From NCBI GenBank assembly GCA_030618105.1, contig JAUXED010000011.1, forward strand, positions 1-39,479: 39,479 bases of DNA, in the 5' to 3' direction. Below, piece by piece: positions 24,843-38,589 of the stretch; the stretch's first letter is position 1; the number at the start of each line of letters is the position of its first letter. Position numbers and translations under genes: made by a program. The DNA comes from Bacteroidota bacterium. GTDB taxonomy: Bacteria; Bacteroidota; Bacteroidia; Bacteroidales; VadinHA17. The notes below the pieces were generated by a model that had not been told where the DNA came from, made no database searches, and saw only the letters and a program-made list of their open reading frames with translations.

Positions 24843-26321
24843 ATGAAAAACATACCTGAAGTAAGAACCGGAATAGTAGCCGTGAGTCGTGATTGTTTCC
24901 CAATTGAACTGTCTGAAAAGAGAAGAAAAAATGTTGTTAAAGCCTGCGGTGAAAAAAAAGTGCCTGTAACAGAGATAAATAAAATTGTTGAAAATGAAAA
25001 TGACATACCCGGGGCTCTTCTTGAACTAGAGAAGAAAAAAGTTAACACTCTGGTTGTTTATCTTGGTAATTTCGGACCTGAAGGACCTCTCTCAATGCTT
25101 GCGCAGAAGTTTAACGGTCCGGTTATGTTTGTTGCAGCGGCTGAAGAAACCGGAAATGATCTCTATGGTGGCAGAGGTGATGCGTTTTGCGGACTCCTGA
25201 GTGCTTCTTATAACGCGGGACTGAGAAGTATAAAACCATACATGCCCGAATATCCGGTTGGAAGACCTGAAGAAATTGCAGAAATGATCAGGGAGTTTAT
25301 TCCGGTTGCAAGAATAATTCTTGGAATAAAAAAGCTGAAGATTTTTACATTCGGACCAAGACCATTTGATTTTAATACACTACATGCTCCGGTTAAACCC
25401 TTGATGGATATCGGTGTGGAGGTCATGGAAAACAGTGAGCTTGATCTGTATGAGCTGTTTAACAGAGCAAAAAATAATCCTGAAGTGCCCGGGGTGTTGA
25501 AGGATATGGAAAAGGAACTTGGTTCAGGCAATAAGTTTCCCGGGATACTTCCGAAACTGGCACAATATGAAGTGGCTCTTACAAGTTTTTTTAAAGAAAA
25601 CCTGGGAACATCTGAATATGGGGTTTTTGCCAATAAGTGCTGGCCTGCATTTCAGACCAGCTTTGGGTTTGTACCATGCTATGTAAATTCCAGACTGGCT
25701 CAAAGAGGAATTCCCGTAGCCTGTGAAGCAGATATTTATGGCGCTTTAAGCGAATATATGCTCACCTGTGCAACCGAACATCCTGCTACTATCCTGGATG
25801 TTAATAATACCGTGCCTTTGGATATGTACGAGAAAGCACAAGAAACGATTGGGGATTATGCTCATAACGATCTCTTTATGGGATTTCATTGCGGAAATAC
25901 CTGCTCATCATGTATGGCAAACTATGAGATGAAATATCAACTCATTATGCACAGGTTAATGGAACCTGATAAAGAGCCGGATATTACAAGGGGAACAATA
26001 GAGGGAACAATCAGGGCAGGGGATATGACCCTTTTCCGCTTCCAGGCAACACCTGAAAATGAACTGAAAGTATATGTAGCAGAAGGAGAAGTGCTTGATA
26101 TGGATCCGAAAACATTCGGTAGTACCGGGATAATTGCTATCAAAGAGATGGGCAGATTTTACAGACATGTTCTATTGGAAAAGAAATTTCCGCATCATGC
26201 AGGTGTCGGATTCAAACATGCAGGGAAAACTCTCTATTCCGCATCCCGCCTTTTGGGAGTTGATGATGTTTCTTTTAATTTACCTAAAGAGATATATTAT
26301 CCTACTGAAAATCCTTTTTAA
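24843..26321 (+). CDS. L-fucose/L-arabinose isomerase-like family protein
   Basis: 492 aa; VVYLGNFGPEGPLSMLAQKFNGPVMFVAAAEE, CWPAFQTSFGFVPCYVNSRLAQRGIPVACEADIYGALSEYML, FHCGNTCSSCM. Confidence 0.75.
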   Translation: MKNIPEVRTGIVAVSRDCFPIELSEKRRKNVVKACGEKKVPVTEINKIVENENDIPGALLELEKKKVNTLVVYLGNFGPEGPLSMLAQKFNGPVMFVAAAEETGNDLYGGRGDAFCGLLSASYNAGLRSIKPYMPEYPVGRPEEIAEMIREFIPVARIILGIKKLKIFTFGPRPFDFNTLHAPVKPLMDIGVEVMENSELDLYELFNRAKNNPEVPGVLKDMEKELGSGNKFPGILPKLAQYEVALTSFFKENLGTSEYGVFANKCWPAFQTSFGFVPCYVNSRLAQRGIPVACEADIYGALSEYMLTCATEHPATILDVNNTVPLDMYEKAQETIGDYAHNDLFMGFHCGNTCSSCMANYEMKYQLIMHRLMEPDKEPDITRGTIEGTIRAGDMTLFRFQATPENELKVYVAEGEVLDMDPKTFGSTGIIAIKEMGRFYRHVLLEKKFPHHAGVGFKHAGKTLYSASRLLGVDDVSFNLPKEIYYPTENPF

Positions 26322-26325
26322 CGTT

Positions 26326-26384
26326 TGTAACAATTTTGTAGCAAACCTGTAATATGTCTGTAATATACTGAATTTAAATTTGTA
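26326..26384 (+). promoter_or_regulatory. PHO-box-like direct-repeat array overlapping a Bacteroidota -7 box, upstream of phoB-like gene
   Basis: TGTA at 26326, 26337, 26348, 26359 and 26381 (spacing 11, 11, 11, 22). Best pair is CTGTAAT-ATGT-CTGTAAT (26347-26364), i.e. 7-bp repeats with a 4-bp spacer. TAAATTTG (TAnnTTTG) at 26375-26382. Confidence 0.65.
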
Positions 26385-26518
26385 ACGAAAATTTGAATTA
26401 ATAGTTATTAAGTATTCTATGCAAAAACTCAAATCAAGACAATGAAAATATCTACAAAAAAGTAACAATAAGTTGTTTGAAAAAAACATTAATTTAAAAA
26501 AAAACAGGAGTTAAAGCG

Positions 26519-27199
26519 ATGAAAAAAGCAAGGATATTAATAGTTGATGATGAAGAAGATTTGTGTGAGATATTAAAATTTAATCTTGAAGGTGAAGGAT
26601 TTGAGGTTGATGAGGCGTATTCAGCAGAAGATGCTATAACAAAACGACTCGATAAATATGACCTGTTACTTCTTGATGTAATGATGGGCAAAATGTCTGG
26701 TTTCAAACTTGCTGAAAAAATCAGGAAAGAAAGAGGATCAACCATCCCAATAATTTTCTTAACGGCAAAGGATACTAAAAACGATACCTTAACAGGCTTT
26801 AGTATAGGTGCTGATGATTATATTTCAAAACCCTTTTCAATTAAGGAGGTGGTTGCCAGGGTTAATGCTGTATTGAACAGAACAACAGGTAAATATGCCG
26901 GTGAACAAATAATAAATGTTGAAGGAATGGAATTTGACCTTAATAAAAAGAAATTAATTATTGATAATAAAAGTATATATCTCACACGTAAAGAATTTGA
27001 AATTCTACAATTACTGATTGAAAATCAAGGCAGAATCTTTTCAAGAGAAGAAGTTTTAAATTATGTATGTAAATATGAAACCGTTGTTACTACCAGAACA
27101 GTTGATGTAAATATTGCCAGAATAAGAAAAAAAATGGGGAAATACGGGAAATTTGTCCGCAGCCGAACAGGATATGGATACTATTTTGATATACAATAA
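26519..27199 (+). CDS. phoB: OmpR/PhoB-family response regulator
   Basis: 226 aa; ILIVDDEEDLCEIL, DLLLLDVMMGKMSG, FLTAKDT, GADDYISKPFS, winged-helix ILQLLIENQGRIFSREEVLNYV...TTRTVDVNIARIRKKMGKYGKFVRSRTGYGYYF. Symbol from family and context, not proven. Confidence 0.85.
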   Translation: MKKARILIVDDEEDLCEILKFNLEGEGFEVDEAYSAEDAITKRLDKYDLLLLDVMMGKMSGFKLAEKIRKERGSTIPIIFLTAKDTKNDTLTGFSIGADDYISKPFSIKEVVARVNAVLNRTTGKYAGEQIINVEGMEFDLNKKKLIIDNKSIYLTRKEFEILQLLIENQGRIFSREEVLNYVCKYETVVTTRTVDVNIARIRKKMGKYGKFVRSRTGYGYYFDIQ

Positions 27200-27226: not shown

Positions 27227-28996
27227 ATGATTTTAGGATCAAGATATAAGAAAAAGCTTTTTTTATACTTCTTTTTTGTATTTATAGCCTTTACTGTAGT
27301 AATCATTATTTTCCAATATGATAGAGAAAAAAAATACCGTATTAATCAACTTGAAAATACGCTGGATAATTACACTGAATTAGTTAATAGCTTCGTCAGG
27401 CAAAGATCAATATTCAGGAATAAAAATTATCGTTTGGTTGACAGTATCATAAAATATATTCCCCGTTCTGATTTAAGAATTACAATGATAAGTCAGAACG
27501 GGACAGTATTATTTGATAGTTTTGTTGAGGATTTTTCTGCTATGGAAAATCATATAAACAGACCTGAGGTTCAAGAATCCATATATTCGGATTTTGGTGC
27601 AAGTGTAAGAAAATCGGAAACAACAGGTAAACAATATTATTATTATTCAAAATTTTATGAGGATTATTTTATCCGAACCGCTGTAATCTTTAATATTCAA
27701 ATTCAGAAATTCCTTAAAGCCGAAAGATTATTTCTCTATTTTATTATGATTCTGTTTTTTATTGTTTTAGTTTCATTAATATATGTATCTGATAAATTTG
27801 GAAAATCTATCTCAAAACTTAAAGATTTTGCTATAAATGCAGGAGAGAATAAGCCGGTTAATGTAGACATACAATTTCCTCAAAATGAATTGGGAGTGAT
27901 TGGCAGGCAAATAGTCCAAATATATACCAAACTGAAAACAACAAGTGATGAATTAAATCTGGAAAGAGAAAAACTTATTCATCATCTCCAACTATCTGCT
28001 GAAGGCATAGCAATATTCTCTCCTCAAAAAAAGAATATAATAGCGAATAGCCGTTTCATCCAATATTCAAATATTATTTCAGATAACCCATCAATTTCAC
28101 CCGATCAAATATTCGAAATCAAAGAATTTAAATCCCTGAATAATTTTATTGATAGTTATAAAAGCAGATCTGTTGATGAGAAACACCTGCCAGGGGAAAA
28201 ACATATTATTGAAAAAAGCAGGAAATATTTTGATATTCAATGTGTTATTTTTCAGGATAAAAGTTTTGAAGTATCAATAAACGATATTACAAAACCTGAA
28301 AAACAAAAGTTGCTGAAACATCAGATGACTACCAATATAGCCCACGAACTAAAAACACCTATTACATCGATAAAAGGGTACCTGGAAACTATATTAACTA
28401 ATGAGAATCTGGAAAACCAGAAACAAAAATATTTTGTCGAAAAGGCTTATAAACAAATAGACAGATTATCTGACTTGGTAAATGATATCTCAATTTTAAC
28501 AAAAATTGAAGAAGCACATAATCTATATAAAATAGAGGAGATGAAAATTCTTCCGTTAATAAATGATGTGCTGGAAAATTTAAAGACAAAATTAGATGAT
28601 AAGAATATTCGGGTTAATTTGGATGTAGATCAAAAAGTTAAAATTAAAGGCAACAAATCTCTTGTTTTTTCAATTTTTCAAAACCTTGTTGAAAATTCCG
28701 TCAATTATGCCGGCAACAATGTTGAAATATCTGTAAAAAAATACTTTGAAGACGATAATTTTTATTATTTTCTTTATTCTGATAATGGAGTAGGTATTAA
28801 GGAAGAACATTTACCGCGTATTTTCGAAAGATTTTATCGTATTGATAAAGGACGGTCACGTAAAGATGGTGGAACAGGCCTTGGCCTTTCCATTGTTAAA
28901 AATGCAATATTATTCCATAAAGGTGAGATATCTGTAAAAAACAGGGAAGAAGGAGGTGTTGAATTCCTTTTTTCAATAAGCCGTTATTTACCATAA
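27227..28996 (+). CDS. phoR: PhoR-like sensor histidine kinase
   Basis: 589 aa; two TMs, HAMP-like region, TTNIAHELKTPITSIKGYLET H-box, NLVENSVNYAG N-box, YSDNGVGIKEEHLPRIFERFYRIDKGRSRKDGGTGLGLSIVKNAI. Confidence 0.88.
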   Translation: MILGSRYKKKLFLYFFFVFIAFTVVIIIFQYDREKKYRINQLENTLDNYTELVNSFVRQRSIFRNKNYRLVDSIIKYIPRSDLRITMISQNGTVLFDSFVEDFSAMENHINRPEVQESIYSDFGASVRKSETTGKQYYYYSKFYEDYFIRTAVIFNIQIQKFLKAERLFLYFIMILFFIVLVSLIYVSDKFGKSISKLKDFAINAGENKPVNVDIQFPQNELGVIGRQIVQIYTKLKTTSDELNLEREKLIHHLQLSAEGIAIFSPQKKNIIANSRFIQYSNIISDNPSISPDQIFEIKEFKSLNNFIDSYKSRSVDEKHLPGEKHIIEKSRKYFDIQCVIFQDKSFEVSINDITKPEKQKLLKHQMTTNIAHELKTPITSIKGYLETILTNENLENQKQKYFVEKAYKQIDRLSDLVNDISILTKIEEAHNLYKIEEMKILPLINDVLENLKTKLDDKNIRVNLDVDQKVKIKGNKSLVFSIFQNLVENSVNYAGNNVEISVKKYFEDDNFYYFLYSDNGVGIKEEHLPRIFERFYRIDKGRSRKDGGTGLGLSIVKNAILFHKGEISVKNREEGGVEFLFSISRYLP

Positions 28997-29009: not shown

Positions 29010-29546
29010 ATGTCAAATATAAAAGCTGTCATTTTCGATTGGGCAGGTACCATTATCGACTATGGATGTATGGCGCCTACCTTGGTTTTTATTGAGGTAT
29101 TTAAGAAGTATGATGTCAATATTTCGGTAAAAGAAGCGAGGGGCCCTATGGGCTTAGCCAAAAAGGAACACCTGAAAGTATTGTGCGAGATGCCGGGAAT
29201 AAGAAAAAAATGGGAAAATCAGTATGGAAAATTACCGGACAGGCAGGATGTTGAAGATATTTATCTTGAATTAGAATCAATGTTCGTCAAAATAGTTGTC
29301 GATTATTCTGACCCTATTCCCGGAGCTGTTAAATTACTTGAAAACTTAAAAAGGAAGGGAATTCGTTCAGGTTCTACAACCGGCTATGTACAATCAATTA
29401 TGGACTCAGTTGTCCCTGTTGCAGAAAGAAAAGGTCTTGTGCCGGAATCTATTGTGTGTTCTTCGGATGTTCCAGGGGGAAGGCCAAAACCATGGATGTG
29501 CTTTATGAACGCAATAAATCTAAATGTTTATCCCTATGAACTTTGA
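29010..29546 (+). pseudogene. phnX: Phosphonoacetaldehyde hydrolase, 3'-truncated
   Basis: 178 aa: IKAVIFDWAGTIIDYGCMAPTLVFIEVFKKYDV, ARGPMGLAKKEHLKVL, GSTTGYVQSIMDSVVPVAERKG, SSDVPGGRPKPWMCFMNAINLNVYPYEL*. Stops before the expected KVGDT motif and C-terminus of this HAD family. Confidence 0.85.
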
Positions 29547-29753: not shown

Positions 29754-30042
29754 GCTTATTCTTTATTGTTGAGAAACCGTAATGAAAAAACTTCGTGTTT
29801 CATAATAACTGAGACTTGTAAAAAACCATGTACAACTCAGGTAAATGTAAAAACTAAAATTCTGGTTTTATTATATGGATACACAAAACACCTTCTTTTA
29901 ACCAAATTTTAATATTTATGAAATGATTATGAAACAACTTTATTTTATTCTTGCTTTTAAGAAATGAACAGCTTGATAAAACTCTGCAGGAATCAGATTA
30001 GATAATAAAAGATTAGTCTTTCAAAGATTATTAACAATAGTT

Positions 30043-30083: not shown

Positions 30084-33000
30084 ATGAGAACAAAAATCTC
30101 CTTTTTTATTATATTGCTGTGCTGGAGCACATTGTGGACAGCCCTCGCACAACAACAAACTTTACAGGGTACTGTAATTGACACTGACGGCAGACCGTTG
30201 CCTGGAGTAAATATCACTCTGAAGGGAACATTTATAGGAAGTGTTACAGATATGGATGGAAAATATTCCATTGAAATCGATAGTCCATCTGACACCCTCG
30301 TCTTTTCTTTTATCGGACATTTTACAAAAGAATTTATTGCAGGGCTCTATGAAACGCTGGATGTCCAGATGGAAATAGAATCTGCTGAAATGAAAGAGGT
30401 AGTAATAACTGCACTTGGGATTAAAAGAGATGAAAAAACGCTGGGTTATTCAGTAACCGAAATTAGTGGAGATGATATTACCCAGGCTCAAGACCCTAAT
30501 TTTCTGAACAACCTCTCGGGAAAAGTGGCAGGGGTTCAAATAACCAGTGGAGGTTCAGGAGTGGGTAGCTCATCCAGGATAATAATACGTGGTGAATCAT
30601 CTCTAATGGGCAATAACCAACCGCTTTTTGTGGTTGATGGTATTCCAATTAATAATGAGACTTACAGTGTTAGGAGTGAAAATAACCTGGAGACTGATTA
30701 TGGAAACGGAGCTTCTGAGTTGAATCCTGATGACATTGAATCAATTAGTATTCTGAAAGGGGCAAATTCTACAGTTTTATATGGTTCACGAGCAGCCAAT
30801 GGTGTAGTTCTGATAACTACAAAATCCGGAAAAGGTAAAAAAGGAATAGGAGTTTCGGTAAATACAGGGGTAACCTTTGAAACCCCTCTCCGAATTCCAA
30901 AATACCAGAACCTGTATGGTCAGGGAAGTACTGATTCCAACGGGAATCCGGTTTTTGAATTTGAAGATGGTTCAAACGGTGGTACTTTTGATGGAATTGA
31001 TGAAAGCTGGGGACCAAGACTTGATGAAGGCTTGATTACAAAACAGCATGATTCACCAACCACTAACGGATTTCGCGGAGGAGATACACGGGTTGGCAAC
31101 AGGGGAGAAATTCAACCTACTCCATGGATATCTCACTCTGATAATGTCAGAAACTTCTTTGAAACAGGCGTTACTTCAAGGATTAATGTTGCCGTACAAG
31201 GAGGTTATGAAAAAGGCGATTTTCGCCTGTCATATTCAAATCTTGATTCAAAGGGAATTCTTCCGAACACCGATTTGAAACGAAATAGCGTAAATCTGAG
31301 TACCTCCTGGAACCTGACAGAAAAGCTAAAGATTGATGCAAAAGCAAACTATATTAAAAGCGGAAGTGATAACCACCCCAATAACAGTTACGGGACAGAG
31401 AACATTATGTATTTATGGGTTTGGTTCGGTCGCCAGATTGCTATGCCTGGTCTTCAAGATTATTGGCAACCCGGGTTTGAAGATGTTCAGCAATTCAACT
31501 ATAATTATAACTGGCATGATAATCCATACTTCACTATGTATGAAAACACCAATGCTTTAAATAAAAACCGGGTGATAGGCCATGTTTCAGCTACTTATGA
31601 ATTCACAAACTGGTTGAAATTAATGGTCAGATCAGGTACCGATGTTTTCAATGATCTTCATATCAGCAAACGTGCATTCAGCACACAGCGATTTCCCTAC
31701 GGACAGTATCGTGAAGACAAGATATATTTTGAAGAGAGAAATTCAGACTTTTTGCTGTCCTTTAACCGCCCGCTTTCCACAAAGTTAACTCTTTCAGCCT
31801 CATTTGGCGGAAACAACATGAGGCAAACGAATAATTATCTGCGTGTAAGTGCAAATCAATTATCTGTACCCGGAATCTACAACTTTGCAAACACGAGAGT
31901 TCCTCTAACAAACAATCAGTATAATCAGGGAAAAATCATTAACAGTTTGTATGGTTCTGCCCAGTTTGGATTCAATGAATTTTTGTTTCTTGATGTTGCC
32001 GGCAGAAATGACTGGTCAAGTACCCTTCCACCCGAACATAACTCGTATTTTTATCCATCAGTATCACTCAGTGCAGTCATAAACGATATGATCAATCTTC
32101 CCGATGTGGTTAGCTATGCAAAAGTAAGGACCGGTTGGGCACAGGTAGGAAATGATACCGATCCGTTCAATTTGAGAAATGTTTTTTTGAACGGTACAAA
32201 CTTATGGGATGGTAATCCAATATTATATGGTGAATCAGATTTAAAAAATTCCAATCTGAAACCTGAAACATCTTCATCTTTTGAAATAGGATTTGATATC
32301 AGGCTATTTAATAATCGATTCGATTTAGACTTTTCATACTACAATACCGATAGCCGGAACCAGATACTTAACGTCCCGGTGGTATTATCGTCAGGTTACA
32401 GTAGCTTTTGGTATAATGCCGGGTTGATAAATAGCAAGGGTGTTGAATTTATGCTTAACGCCATTCCAATCCAGTCGACAAATAATGGTTTCAAGTGGGA
32501 CATCGGCCTTTCATGGTCAAGAGACAGAAGCACTGTTGTAGAGCTGGCACCTGAATTTGAAATTAATGAATACCAGATTTCCTCCAACTATTTGATCGTA
32601 AAAGCTGTTGAAGGGGGAAGAATGGGTGATGTTTACGGCACGGGATTTACTGAGATTGATGGAAAAACTCTTTATCAAAACGGTTACCATGTCCGCGACA
32701 ACAACCTTAAAAAGTTAGGCAATTACAACCCTGACTGGCTATTAGGCATCAATAATGGATTTACATTTAAAAGGTTCAGGTTCGATGCTCTTTTTGATAT
32801 GAGGAAAGGAGGAGTGGTAATGTCCAGAACATTATTGATCGGGGGAACATCCGGAATGATGGAAGAGACAATACCCGGTCGTGATGAGTCTACAGGGGGA
32901 ATACCTTACTATTATGATTCCGGACTCGGAAGGAATGTAACTTTGCCCAGCCATTCTTCATCCAGTCCAAACGGTGAAACCGTTTTTCATGATGGCATAA

Positions 33001-33365
33001 TCGGTGAAGGAGTCATGAAAGATGGTGATTCTTATACTACCAATGATGTTCCCATACCTGCCCGTTCCTTTTACTGGTCTTATTATAACAGGAGCAATGA
33101 AGAGAGTGGAATCTATGATGCAACTTACATCAAGCTCCGGGAGATGAGATTAAGTTATACTCTTCCTCAATCACTTATCGCGAAAGCCGGGTTACAGGAT
33201 ATTACCATTTCTCTTATCGGGAGAAACCTTTTTTTATGGACTGACAATCCGCACTTCGATCCTGATGTACTCTCGTTTAATTCAGCAACCATGGTCCCCG
33301 GCGTTGAGGATATGGCAACACCATCATCTCGTAGCTATGGGGTCAACCTCAGTTTTAAATTCTAA
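30084..33365 (+). CDS. SusC/RagA-family TonB-linked outer membrane protein
   Basis: 1093 aa; LQGTVIDTDGRPLPGVNITLKGTFIGSVTDMDGKYSIEI, ALGIKRDEKTLGYSVTEISGDDI, LSGKVAGVQITSGGSGVGSSSRIIIRGESSLMGNNQPLFVVDGIPINNE, SISILKGANSTVLYGSRAANGVVLITTKSGK. Confidence 0.96.
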   Translation: MRTKISFFIILLCWSTLWTALAQQQTLQGTVIDTDGRPLPGVNITLKGTFIGSVTDMDGKYSIEIDSPSDTLVFSFIGHFTKEFIAGLYETLDVQMEIESAEMKEVVITALGIKRDEKTLGYSVTEISGDDITQAQDPNFLNNLSGKVAGVQITSGGSGVGSSSRIIIRGESSLMGNNQPLFVVDGIPINNETYSVRSENNLETDYGNGASELNPDDIESISILKGANSTVLYGSRAANGVVLITTKSGKGKKGIGVSVNTGVTFETPLRIPKYQNLYGQGSTDSNGNPVFEFEDGSNGGTFDGIDESWGPRLDEGLITKQHDSPTTNGFRGGDTRVGNRGEIQPTPWISHSDNVRNFFETGVTSRINVAVQGGYEKGDFRLSYSNLDSKGILPNTDLKRNSVNLSTSWNLTEKLKIDAKANYIKSGSDNHPNNSYGTENIMYLWVWFGRQIAMPGLQDYWQPGFEDVQQFNYNYNWHDNPYFTMYENTNALNKNRVIGHVSATYEFTNWLKLMVRSGTDVFNDLHISKRAFSTQRFPYGQYREDKIYFEERNSDFLLSFNRPLSTKLTLSASFGGNNMRQTNNYLRVSANQLSVPGIYNFANTRVPLTNNQYNQGKIINSLYGSAQFGFNEFLFLDVAGRNDWSSTLPPEHNSYFYPSVSLSAVINDMINLPDVVSYAKVRTGWAQVGNDTDPFNLRNVFLNGTNLWDGNPILYGESDLKNSNLKPETSSSFEIGFDIRLFNNRFDLDFSYYNTDSRNQILNVPVVLSSGYSSFWYNAGLINSKGVEFMLNAIPIQSTNNGFKWDIGLSWSRDRSTVVELAPEFEINEYQISSNYLIVKAVEGGRMGDVYGTGFTEIDGKTLYQNGYHVRDNNLKKLGNYNPDWLLGINNGFTFKRFRFDALFDMRKGGVVMSRTLLIGGTSGMMEETIPGRDESTGGIPYYYDSGLGRNVTLPSHSSSSPNGETVFHDGIIGEGVMKDGDSYTTNDVPIPARSFYWSYYNRSNEESGIYDATYIKLREMRLSYTLPQSLIAKAGLQDITISLIGRNLFLWTDNPHFDPDVLSFNSATMVPGVEDMATPSSRSYGVNLSFKF

Positions 33366-33383: not shown

Positions 33384-34856
33384 ATGAAAACAATAACTAA
33401 AACACTGGCATGTATACTTGCAATCAATTTACTTTTGGTGTCGTGCACCAAGACCTTTGATGAGATCAATACAAACCCCAATTCCCCTGAAGAAGCGTTT
33501 CCTAATTTGCTCTTAACCGGAATTCTGGAAAGCACTTTAAACGAGACAGCCCTTAGAGCTTTTGAGCAAGGGAATGTAATTACTCAGCTAACTGCCAAAT
33601 TTATTTTCACGGACTTTGACAGGTACGACTGGAACGCCGGTCAAACAGCCGGTTTATGGAATGTTATGTACAAGAATCTCAGGGATAACAATACAATGAA
33701 ACAATTAGCAAAGAATTTGAATAATGAAAGCTACGAGGGGGTATCCCTGATCCTCCGGACATGGATGTTTACTAATCTTACTGACAACTGGGGAGCTATT
33801 CCGTATAGTGAAGCCCTGAATGGCTTAAGCTTCGGGAAATTCAAACCTGTATATGACAGCCAGCAAGAAGTTTATGCAGGATTACTTGCCACACTTGATT
33901 CAGCCAATACAATTTTATCCACGGCAAAATCAACAATTGATGGAGATATATTGTATAATGGTTCAGTTGAAAAATGGCAAAAACTCGCCAACTCGCTTAA
34001 GTTAAGATTGTTAATGCGTATGTCCGAAGTTGATCCAAATCAGGCAGAACAAGGCATTAATGAGATCATAAGCAATCCTAATACTTATCCCATTTTTAAC
34101 AGCAACGAGGATAACGCGGTAATGGAATACCTGGCAAGACCGAACAATTGGCCTTTCAGCGACTACCGTGTAGGCTCTTTCAATGAATGGAGATTGAGCT
34201 TAAACATGGAAAACATCCTGAAAGGGAATGATGATCCGCGGTTGTATACCTGGTTCAGGCCCATTGACAATGTTGATAGCACCGATATTTATCTTGGTGT
34301 GCCAAATGGGCTTAGTGATGGTAGCGCTGAAACTTATAACGGGGGCCGTTCAAACTTATCACGTTTATCCACCCTGTTTTATGAGCAGGAAGATGCTATT
34401 GATGCCATTCTGATGACTTATTCCGAGATACAGTTCATTTTGGCTGAAGCTGCTCATAGAGGTTGGATCGGCGGTTCAGTTGATGATTATTATAATGAAG
34501 GAATGCGTGCAACTTTTAATTATTGGAATGTTGATTGGGGAACTGTAAGTTGGGCTAACGAAAATGAGTATATGGCACAGGCTAATGTTGCTCTCGTACA
34601 TGATAATACCGATCTGGAGAAGATTATTAAACAAAAGTGGCTGTCCCTTTTCTTCACGGGGTATGAAGCATGGAATGATTACAGAAGGACCGGTTTTCCG
34701 TCTTTTATTGTTCCTGGCCCTGAGAACCTGAATAATAACATGGTTCCTGTTAAATTCTTGTATCCTGATTCTGAACAATCACTTAATAACGATAACTGGA
34801 ACAATGCAACCGGTGGAACAGATAATATTAATAAAAAAGTATGGTGGGCTAAATAA
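33384..34856 (+). CDS. SusD/RagB-family nutrient-binding lipoprotein
   Basis: 490 aa; lipobox NLLLVSCTKTFDEINTNPNSPEEA; MTYSEIQFILAEAAHRGW; directly downstream of SusC. Confidence 0.93.
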   Translation: MKTITKTLACILAINLLLVSCTKTFDEINTNPNSPEEAFPNLLLTGILESTLNETALRAFEQGNVITQLTAKFIFTDFDRYDWNAGQTAGLWNVMYKNLRDNNTMKQLAKNLNNESYEGVSLILRTWMFTNLTDNWGAIPYSEALNGLSFGKFKPVYDSQQEVYAGLLATLDSANTILSTAKSTIDGDILYNGSVEKWQKLANSLKLRLLMRMSEVDPNQAEQGINEIISNPNTYPIFNSNEDNAVMEYLARPNNWPFSDYRVGSFNEWRLSLNMENILKGNDDPRLYTWFRPIDNVDSTDIYLGVPNGLSDGSAETYNGGRSNLSRLSTLFYEQEDAIDAILMTYSEIQFILAEAAHRGWIGGSVDDYYNEGMRATFNYWNVDWGTVSWANENEYMAQANVALVHDNTDLEKIIKQKWLSLFFTGYEAWNDYRRTGFPSFIVPGPENLNNNMVPVKFLYPDSEQSLNNDNWNNATGGTDNINKKVWWAK

Positions 34857-35778: not shown

Positions 35779-38589
35779 ATGATTAAACGATCTGCCCTTA
35801 TTATAATTTCTGTTTTGGCCTTGATTTTCAGTTCTTGTAAAACACGGGAAGAAAATGCCAACCTGCTCAACCATCAGTGGCTGGCTGAGGCACCCGCTTA
35901 TACCCTCTATACTCAAATAAATAAGGCAGGTGAGACCATTATTCCGAACGGACGAATCATTACACCATCCGATAGAACCTTCCAGGTCGCACCTCATCCT
36001 TATGGTCTTAGCCTAAGCCACGATGGGAATACAATTGTCACTGCCAATTCAGGCACAAGTCCACTATCGATTACAATTATTCGTGATATTAATGACGAAC
36101 AGCCTGAAATTCAACAAATTCCTGAAGGAGCAAAAACCGATAAAGGTATTCTGGCATCTGTTTTTATGGGTCTTGCTATATCGCCCGATAATAAAATAGT
36201 ATACGTTGGTGGTGGACAGGAAAATAAAATATTCCTTTTTGATATTACAACAGGGGAAAAAGCAGGATATATTGACTGCAGTACCGATGACGAAGAAAAT
36301 GATTATTCGCATGGTTATATAGGAGACCTTGTTTTGAGCAGGGATGGCAAAACTCTGTATGCTGTTGACCAGACAAACTTCAGGATGATTATTGCTGATA
36401 CAGAAACAGCAAAAGTTACCGGCAATGTTAAGGTAGGTCGTTATCCATTTGGCATCACCCTTTCTCCGGACGAAAAAAAAATTTATGTAGCAAATGTTGG
36501 GATGTTCGAATACAAAAAAATTACCGGTGCTGACTTTGATAATTTGGAAGAAACAGCTCTGGAATTTCCTCCGTTCGCATACTTATCAGAAGAAGCTACC
36601 CATGGGATTCACACCGATACTTTGGAAATTCCAGGCATCGGGGAGCCGAATGTGCCGGAAGCCTTTTCGGTCTGGATCATAAGCCTTGAAAGCGAAAAGC
36701 CACCAAAAGTAATCGCGAAAATTAAAACCGGGCATTTGGTTGGCGCCTTGATTGAAGGTATTCCAGCGGTCGGTGGTTCAAGTCCAAATTCCCTGGTTGC
36801 AACGTCAGATTATGTATTTGTAAGCAACGGAAATAACGATAATATTTCAGTAATTGATATAAAAAATGATAGTTTATTACAACATATTCAACTTACCCTG
36901 GATCGCAGAATTGACCACTTACGTGGAATTATTCCATTCGGGCTGGCTTTGTCACCGGATAATAAACGACTATATGTTGCTGAATCAGGGATTAATGCGA
37001 TTGGTGTAATTGATGTAGAATCTAAGGAAGTAATAGGTCATATTCCTGCAGGGTGGTTCCCATCCAAACTAAAAGTTAGCAGGGATGGGAAAAAACTTAT
37101 TGTGGCAAATGCAAAAGGTTATGGGAGTGGACCAAATGGAGGACCGGAATTTACAGTTGGCCCCGAAGGCAGTTATATTGGAAGTCTTATGAAAGGTACA
37201 GTTTCAGTTATTAATATTCCTTCCGATCAAGAGTTAATACAAACTACCCAACAGGTTATCTCCAATAATTTTACCTTCAATCCGGTTTCTTCTGAGAAAT
37301 TTTTGTGGAGAAAAGAAAATCCTGTTCCTATCTATCCGGGGAATAAACCCTCTCCCATAAAACATATTGTATTTATATCCAAAGAGAACAGGACTTTTGA
37401 TGAAATTTTTGGACAGATAGAAAATGGAAAGGGAGAACCATCGCTTGCACGTTATGGAAAGAATGTAACATTTAGTAACCAGGCGAAAACCAAAACGGTA
37501 ACAGAGGCTGACGTTATGCCCAATCACCTGACTCTGGCTAAAAAATATGCGATCGCGGATAACTTTTATGTTGATTCTGATGTTTCGGCTGATGGACATC
37601 GCTGGCTCGTTAATACTTATCCCAACGAATGGGTTGAAACCAATACGGCTGCCAGTTATGGCGGTAACAGGAATTTCAATAGAGATTCAAAGGCTCCCGG
37701 TGCACTTGGCATGACCGGCGCTGCAGGAGCGATTTATCCTGAAGATTATAATGAGGCAGGTTCCATGTGGGAACATCTTGAGCGCCATGAGATTGATTTT
37801 TACAACTTTGGATTTGGTACAATGTTCGAACCGGCAGTGTATCTTCCATCTTTTAAATACACCGGAATAAAGCATATTTATAATTTCCCTCTTCCTGAAC
37901 CCATGTTTTACAAGACCTCACGATTATATGCAACCTATAATATGGCTATACCTGACCAGTTCCGCATCGATATGTTCATTAAAGAATTTACAGAAAAATG
38001 GATTGAAGGAGAAGATAAATTACCACCTGTTATTACTGTTATCATTCCAAATGATCATGGAGCCGGAGAAAGGCCTGAAGCCGGATATCCTTTCAAAGAA
38101 AGTTATATGTCTGATAATGATCTTGCAGTGGGCCGGATTGTTGAATTTTTATCCGGAACATCCTATTGGAAGGAGATGGCTATTTTTATTACTGAAGATG
38201 ATGCGCAGGGCGGAGTGGATCACATTGATGCTCATCGCAGTATTTTAATGGTAATTTCCCCCTTTGCTAAAAAGAATTATGTGGGTCATGTTCACTATAG
38301 CTTTGGCAGCATTTTTAAAACGTTTTGGAATATTCTGGGAATTCCGTACTTGAACCAGTATGATGCAGGTGCAACCGATTTGGCTGATATGTTCGCAGAC
38401 ACTACGGATTATACGCCTTATAATGCTATTCCTGTTGATGAACTGATCTTTGATCCCCAAAAAGCACTGGATCCGTTTGATGAAAAGTTTAACTGGAAAG
38501 CTATCGAAGAATCACCTGTTCTTGATGATGTGAAGGTAATGCTAAAAGACAGCAAAGAATTTGATGAGAAACAAGACGAGAAGAAATAA
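35779..38589 (+). CDS. YVTN/YncE-like beta-propeller fused to a phosphoesterase-family (AcpA/phospholipase C-like) domain, lipoprotein
   Basis: 936 aa; lipobox ALIFSSCKT; repeated blades such as GLALSPDNKRLYVAESGINAIGVIDVESKEVIGHIPAGWFPSKLKVSRDGKKLIVANAKG; C-terminal KHIVFISKENRTFDEIFG, DVSADGHRW, IPNDHGAGERPEAG, ITEDDAQGGVDHIDAHRS. Confidence 0.9.
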   Translation: MIKRSALIIISVLALIFSSCKTREENANLLNHQWLAEAPAYTLYTQINKAGETIIPNGRIITPSDRTFQVAPHPYGLSLSHDGNTIVTANSGTSPLSITIIRDINDEQPEIQQIPEGAKTDKGILASVFMGLAISPDNKIVYVGGGQENKIFLFDITTGEKAGYIDCSTDDEENDYSHGYIGDLVLSRDGKTLYAVDQTNFRMIIADTETAKVTGNVKVGRYPFGITLSPDEKKIYVANVGMFEYKKITGADFDNLEETALEFPPFAYLSEEATHGIHTDTLEIPGIGEPNVPEAFSVWIISLESEKPPKVIAKIKTGHLVGALIEGIPAVGGSSPNSLVATSDYVFVSNGNNDNISVIDIKNDSLLQHIQLTLDRRIDHLRGIIPFGLALSPDNKRLYVAESGINAIGVIDVESKEVIGHIPAGWFPSKLKVSRDGKKLIVANAKGYGSGPNGGPEFTVGPEGSYIGSLMKGTVSVINIPSDQELIQTTQQVISNNFTFNPVSSEKFLWRKENPVPIYPGNKPSPIKHIVFISKENRTFDEIFGQIENGKGEPSLARYGKNVTFSNQAKTKTVTEADVMPNHLTLAKKYAIADNFYVDSDVSADGHRWLVNTYPNEWVETNTAASYGGNRNFNRDSKAPGALGMTGAAGAIYPEDYNEAGSMWEHLERHEIDFYNFGFGTMFEPAVYLPSFKYTGIKHIYNFPLPEPMFYKTSRLYATYNMAIPDQFRIDMFIKEFTEKWIEGEDKLPPVITVIIPNDHGAGERPEAGYPFKESYMSDNDLAVGRIVEFLSGTSYWKEMAIFITEDDAQGGVDHIDAHRSILMVISPFAKKNYVGHVHYSFGSIFKTFWNILGIPYLNQYDAGATDLADMFADTTDYTPYNAIPVDELIFDPQKALDPFDEKFNWKAIEESPVLDDVKVMLKDSKEFDEKQDEKK

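Follow-up and report, generated by a model that had tools for sequence, protein, structure and literature searches.

A putative four-repeat PHO box with Escherichia coli geometry at a Bacteroidota promoter upstream of phoBR

What controls the phoBR genes in a 39,479-nucleotide stretch of Bacteroidota DNA (the window)? In the 197-bp intergenic region directly before phoB (26322-26518), TGTA recurs at regular distances close to a candidate promoter element. A sequence-only reading had described these repeats as an operator resembling the PHO box of Proteobacteria. We asked how many repeats there are, how they are placed relative to the promoter, and whether PhoB is the regulator that they would serve.

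Repeats and promoter element before phoB

The intergenic region houses four heptamers in a single 11-bp register with 4-bp spacers, all on the plus strand: TTGTAAC (26325-26331), TTGTAGC (26336-26342), CTGTAAT (26347-26353), and CTGTAAT (26358-26364). Relative to the predicted transcription start they begin at -62, -51, -40, and -29, respectively. Tandem 7-bp direct repeats with 4-bp spacers, here at 26325, 26336, 26347, and 26358, are the arrangement of a PHO box. Heptamers 3 and 4 together form CTGTAAT-ATGT-CTGTAAT, the classical 18-bp box, as the sequence-only reading had recognized. Each of the two matches CTGTCAT at 6 of 7 positions, and the PHO-box consensus differs between species (PMC4415409). 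The second heptamer departs from the consensus.

That reading had placed TGTA at 26326, 26337, 26348, 26359, and 26381, along with a CTGAAT one base off the register, and all of these positions were correct. The 11-bp register also held, but the count of units did not. What reads as TGTA at 26381 comes from the promoter context, in which TTTG is followed by TA, and a sequence logo of orthologous promoters likewise shows TTTG[CT]A. The slot at 26370 holds no repeat, only CTGAAT at 26368-26373, shifted by one base. We therefore rejected an array of five or six units including 26381 and consider the operator to consist of four. It had also been thought to overlap the promoter element, although the array ends at 26364 and exactly 10 bp (26365-26374) separate it from the -7 box, such that the two abut.

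The -7 box, TAAATTTG at 26375-26382 on the plus strand, conforms to the TAnnTTTG of the Bacteroidota housekeeping promoter, and its TTTG is nearly invariant among aligned sites. As had been predicted from the letters, the array stands in place of the -33 element: positions 26350-26357 read TAATATGT, and neither TTG nor TTTG was found at -33, as expected of an activator-dependent promoter. The array is thus positioned as a PHO box should be, 10 bp upstream of the -10 equivalent and replacing the -35/-33 element. The -7 box was mapped to -12 to -5 in F. psychrophilum (PMC9723704), and if TAAATTTG spans the same positions, then the predicted start of phoBR lies at about 26387.

The earlier expectation of a PhoB-like regulator followed by a PhoR-like kinase was borne out by curated models for Bacteroidetes. 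The response regulator phoB (26519-27199, plus strand) scored 321.7 bits against NCBIfam NF053854 (RespRegPhoBBctds; cut-off 270), and the sensor histidine kinase phoR (27227-28996, plus strand) scored 720 bits against NF053855 (HisKinPhoRBctds; cut-off 500).

Conservation at orthologs and the predicted regulon

The sequence-only reading had proposed comparing the upstream regions of orthologous phoB genes. To this end, we gathered phoB loci from species genomes, which yielded 98 distinct upstream regions. Of the spacings between 7 and 18 bp, 11 bp alone showed clear enrichment, with 25 regions scoring at least 11 versus 3.7 in shuffles. Distances from heptamer to TTTG, counted with the window excluded, peaked at 43 (33 sequences), 54 (32), and 21 bp (18), compared with a mean of 4.0. 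The window's array occupies the same register of 54, 43, 32, and 21 bp before TTTG, its second heptamer falling at 43. Hence, the spacing to the core promoter is conserved like the repeats themselves. Many other phoB genes stand directly behind phoU, according to visual inspection of the coding sequence upstream, and would need no promoter at that position.

A pattern of two heptamers alone was unspecific, giving 34 matches with up to 2 mismatches versus 23 for the reversed control. We built a weight matrix from 36 phoB-upstream sites of other Bacteroidales, excluding the window, and scanned both strands of all 39.5 kb. Only two matches stood out, with TTTG at 26379 (22.5 bits) and 29950 (17.5 bits), and the next best scored -2.2. 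Maxima over 100 shuffled windows averaged 1.0, with a single one at 16.6. A sequence-only covariance model, R1, was derived from 45 sites, and the regulon searches used stretches together with R1. Within the window, R1 matched 26325-26384 (E = 4e-10) and the second array (E = 3.8e-6). Across the whole genome these two sites were the only matches below E = 0.02, with the second array at E = 2.3e-4. One further weak site (C82:1716-1765, E = 0.02) was taken as chance because no gene is suitably placed beside it.

Because phoB promoters supplied the training sites, orthologous sites match the motif partly by construction. We controlled for this bias with a matrix-free distance count outside of phoB promoters and a genome test without the training genomes. 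In the former, period-11 pairs lay most often 43, 21, 32, 10, and 54 bp from TTTG (28, 16, 10, 9, and 6 cases, respectively; mean 2.8), all of them in the same register. In the latter, we began from 99 genomes, of which 23 of the 37 with PhoB carried strong sites (E < 1e-4) versus 2 of the 62 without. Once genomes whose best site had served for training were removed, the counts were 16 of 30 versus 2 of 62 (Fisher p = 5e-8, a value that ignores relatedness among genomes). In six of the 37 PhoB-positive genomes no site reached E < 0.001, which may in part reflect a phoB located behind phoU in the pst operon.

Matrix sites outside of phoB promoters recurred before genes for phosphate acquisition. 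The 50 genes behind these sites included 10 PstS-like proteins, 6 phosphate-selective porins (Porin_O_P), 6 of CarbopepD/TonB-receptor type, 5 PhoU, and 3 Pit transporters (PHO4), as well as single cases of DUF47, PstC, a metallophosphoesterase (Metallophos), and GDPD. Phocaeicola vulgatus ATCC 8482 has sites before phoB and pstS as well as before genes for a Pit transporter, a Na/Pi cotransporter, a Porin_O_P protein, and a metallophosphoesterase. Parabacteroides distasonis has one site before a SusC/RagA receptor, as does the window. A 292-aa protein, a predicted regulon member, stands behind a site in P. vulgatus, P. massiliensis, and P. goldsteinii, and one copy searched against Pfam returned no match.

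Outside of Bacteroidales, R1 was weak, reaching E ≤ 0.001 in 8 of 147 other genomes of the phylum. Arrays of CTTAAC type with 11-bp spacing were found in other classes of the phylum, with 14 matches in 148 genomes and none for the reversed pattern. These arrays often have TTTG at 54 or 43 bp and precede porin-like, PstS-like, and TonB-receptor genes.

Activation by PhoB and its alternatives

We consider it very probable that 26325-26364 is the PhoB operator of the phoBR promoter. This putative assignment is based on the sequence, the identities of phoB and phoR, conservation, the fixed spacing, co-occurrence with PhoB, and the set of target genes. From these we infer binding by the window's PhoB, the number of dimers, activation, the start site, and a phosphate response. 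Judged by its sequence, the four-repeat array is the Bacteroidales form of the PHO box, which keeps the E. coli geometry on a Bacteroidota -7 promoter. It shares with the E. coli box its 7-bp direct repeats, 4-bp spacers (11-bp units), and TGT-A core, its end 10 bp upstream of the -10 equivalent, the missing upstream promoter element, and phoB among the targets. The Bacteroidales heptamer is YTGTAAY, whereas that of E. coli is CTGTCAT, and four units are usual in Bacteroidales. The promoters also differ, with the TAnnTTTG -7 box of the Bacteroidota housekeeping sigma factor in the place of a sigma-70 -10 element.

In E. coli, PhoB binds head-to-tail on 11-bp direct repeats (PMC4415409), the PHO box lies 10 bp upstream of -10 (PMC1906773), and in structural models PhoB covers the -35 region and touches both sigma and alpha (PMC3348028). 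With the same 10-bp gap in the window, class II-like activation is the likeliest mode. The array would form two tandem 22-bp sites, each of two 11-bp units, on one face of the helix, where phosphorylated PhoB would bind head-to-tail, probably as two dimers. The promoter-proximal dimer would cover -40 to -23 and replace the missing -33 element, with the second dimer upstream. Bound in this way, PhoB would bring RNA polymerase with the housekeeping sigma factor to TAAATTTG, transcription would start near 26387, and phoBR would be positively autoregulated under phosphate shortage.

The leading alternative, that a different OmpR/PhoB-family regulator binds the array, strikes us as improbable. Tandem direct repeats are common in this family, many of whose members bind 11-bp direct repeats, and the window's genome has 25 response-regulator profile matches. 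Yet most of the recognizable targets are phosphate genes, and PhoB-negative genomes, despite their many other OmpR-family regulators, have almost no strong sites.

That PhoB instead represses its own promoter seems marginally less plausible still. The box adjoins the core promoter, and PhoB bound there could obstruct polymerase. However, its position equals that of the activating site in E. coli, 10 bp upstream of -10 (PMC1906773), and no -33 element is present. Arrays of this geometry also stand before pst genes, pstC in B. fragilis depends on PhoB, and phosphate depletion induces rather than represses phoB in F. johnsoniae.

Chance periodicity of a short word, TGTA, in an AT-rich intergenic region has a negligible probability and is already refuted by conservation: the array is kept across families with its phase to TTTG fixed, and four consecutive TGTA at 11-bp spacing appeared in 0 of 20,000 order-2 shuffles of the 197-bp region (9 of the 20,000 for any period of 6 to 24) and never in 400 shuffles of the full window.

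Binding and activation by PhoB, our preferred reading, can be placed beside work on relatives. The PhoRB system of Bacteroides fragilis belongs to the same phylum and has the same regulator. Its PhoB binds the pstC promoter in EMSA and is required for pstC expression in low phosphate (PMC3547664); a term search of that text found no defined motif, and the study makes no statement about promoter geometry. In F. johnsoniae, phosphate depletion raises phoB (tabulated value 3.06), and phoBR, TonB/SusC-SusD (Pus) receptors, and phosphatases respond together (PMC8115612). The latter study defines no operator, and the terms 'motif' and 'binding site' are absent from its text. Phosphate control in these two other species agrees with our reading. 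Predicted Pho regulons of cyanobacteria (PMC1906773) similarly rest on lineage-specific Pho boxes identified by comparative genomics, but involve another phylum, heptamer, and promoter class. In keeping with the earlier suspicion that a PHO box on a Bacteroidota promoter is little described, we found no operator motif for a Bacteroidota PhoB in the open-licence literature, and it may have been described elsewhere. PhoB binding in B. fragilis is already known; the operator motif is new as far as we found.

A second array and the phosphate regulon

The second array (29896-29935, plus strand; weight matrix score 17.5) comprises TTTTAAC, TTTTAAT, ATGAAAT, and ATGAAAC at 29896, 29907, 29918, and 29929. 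It departs from the heptamer consensus, keeps the 11-bp register, and its fourth heptamer ends 10 bp before a -7 element, TATTCTTG (29946-29953, plus strand), with one mismatch to TAnnTTTG. Shuffling the local sequence 5000 times never gave an equal score. Downstream on the same strand are a SusC/RagA TonB-dependent receptor (30084-33365; TIGR04056, 626.7 bits), the probable target; a SusD-like lipoprotein (33384-34856; PF12771, E = 9.4e-102), probably cotranscribed; and a protein combining a beta-propeller with a phosphoesterase family domain (35779-38589; PF04185, 34.9 bits; PF10282, 39.5 bits), possibly of the same operon. This array, with its -7 element at 29946, would put the SusC, SusD, and phosphoesterase genes under the same control as phoBR. 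Its presence suggests that 29896-29953 marks a PhoB-controlled locus for the uptake of organic phosphate, resembling the SusCD-like Pus systems in the PHO regulon of F. johnsoniae.

The genomic setting of phoBR is unusual among close relatives. Only the window's genome among seven congeneric genomes has a PhoB above the cut-off, and there phoBR occurs without Pst. The pstSCAB-phoU set of a canonical Pho system was not found in the window's genome, PstC was found neither there nor in the six sampled genus mates, and the mates had no PhoB over the cut-off and no strong PHO-box sites. PhoU domains in the window's genome occur only within the frame of a Na/Pi cotransporter. The phoBR genes of this genome may have been gained separately and may serve the SusCD/phosphoesterase locus.

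Two neighboring genes also drew notice. Directly upstream of the phoB promoter, 24843-26321 encodes a protein with a fucose-isomerase C-terminal domain and a weak likeness to sulfoquinovose isomerase (82.7 bits versus a cut-off of 700). The open reading frame at 29010-29546 (178 aa) resembles phosphonoacetaldehyde hydrolase, covering positions 1-172 of the 251-position TIGR01422 model, and looks C-terminally truncated.

Taking these observations together, we lean slightly toward a Bacteroidota-wide PHO box of four units placed 10 bp from the -7 box, with a lineage-specific heptamer (TGTAAC in Bacteroidales, CTTAAC in at least one other class) and a fixed geometry, which in the window's genome would control a SusC/SusD/phosphoesterase locus without Pst. 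These results suggest that the geometry between PhoB and polymerase has been kept between E. coli and Bacteroidota despite their differing housekeeping promoters. For an order that is important both in the gut and in the environment, the putative operator offers a usable definition by which Pho regulons, including SusCD-type loci for organic-phosphate uptake, would become predictable from sequence.
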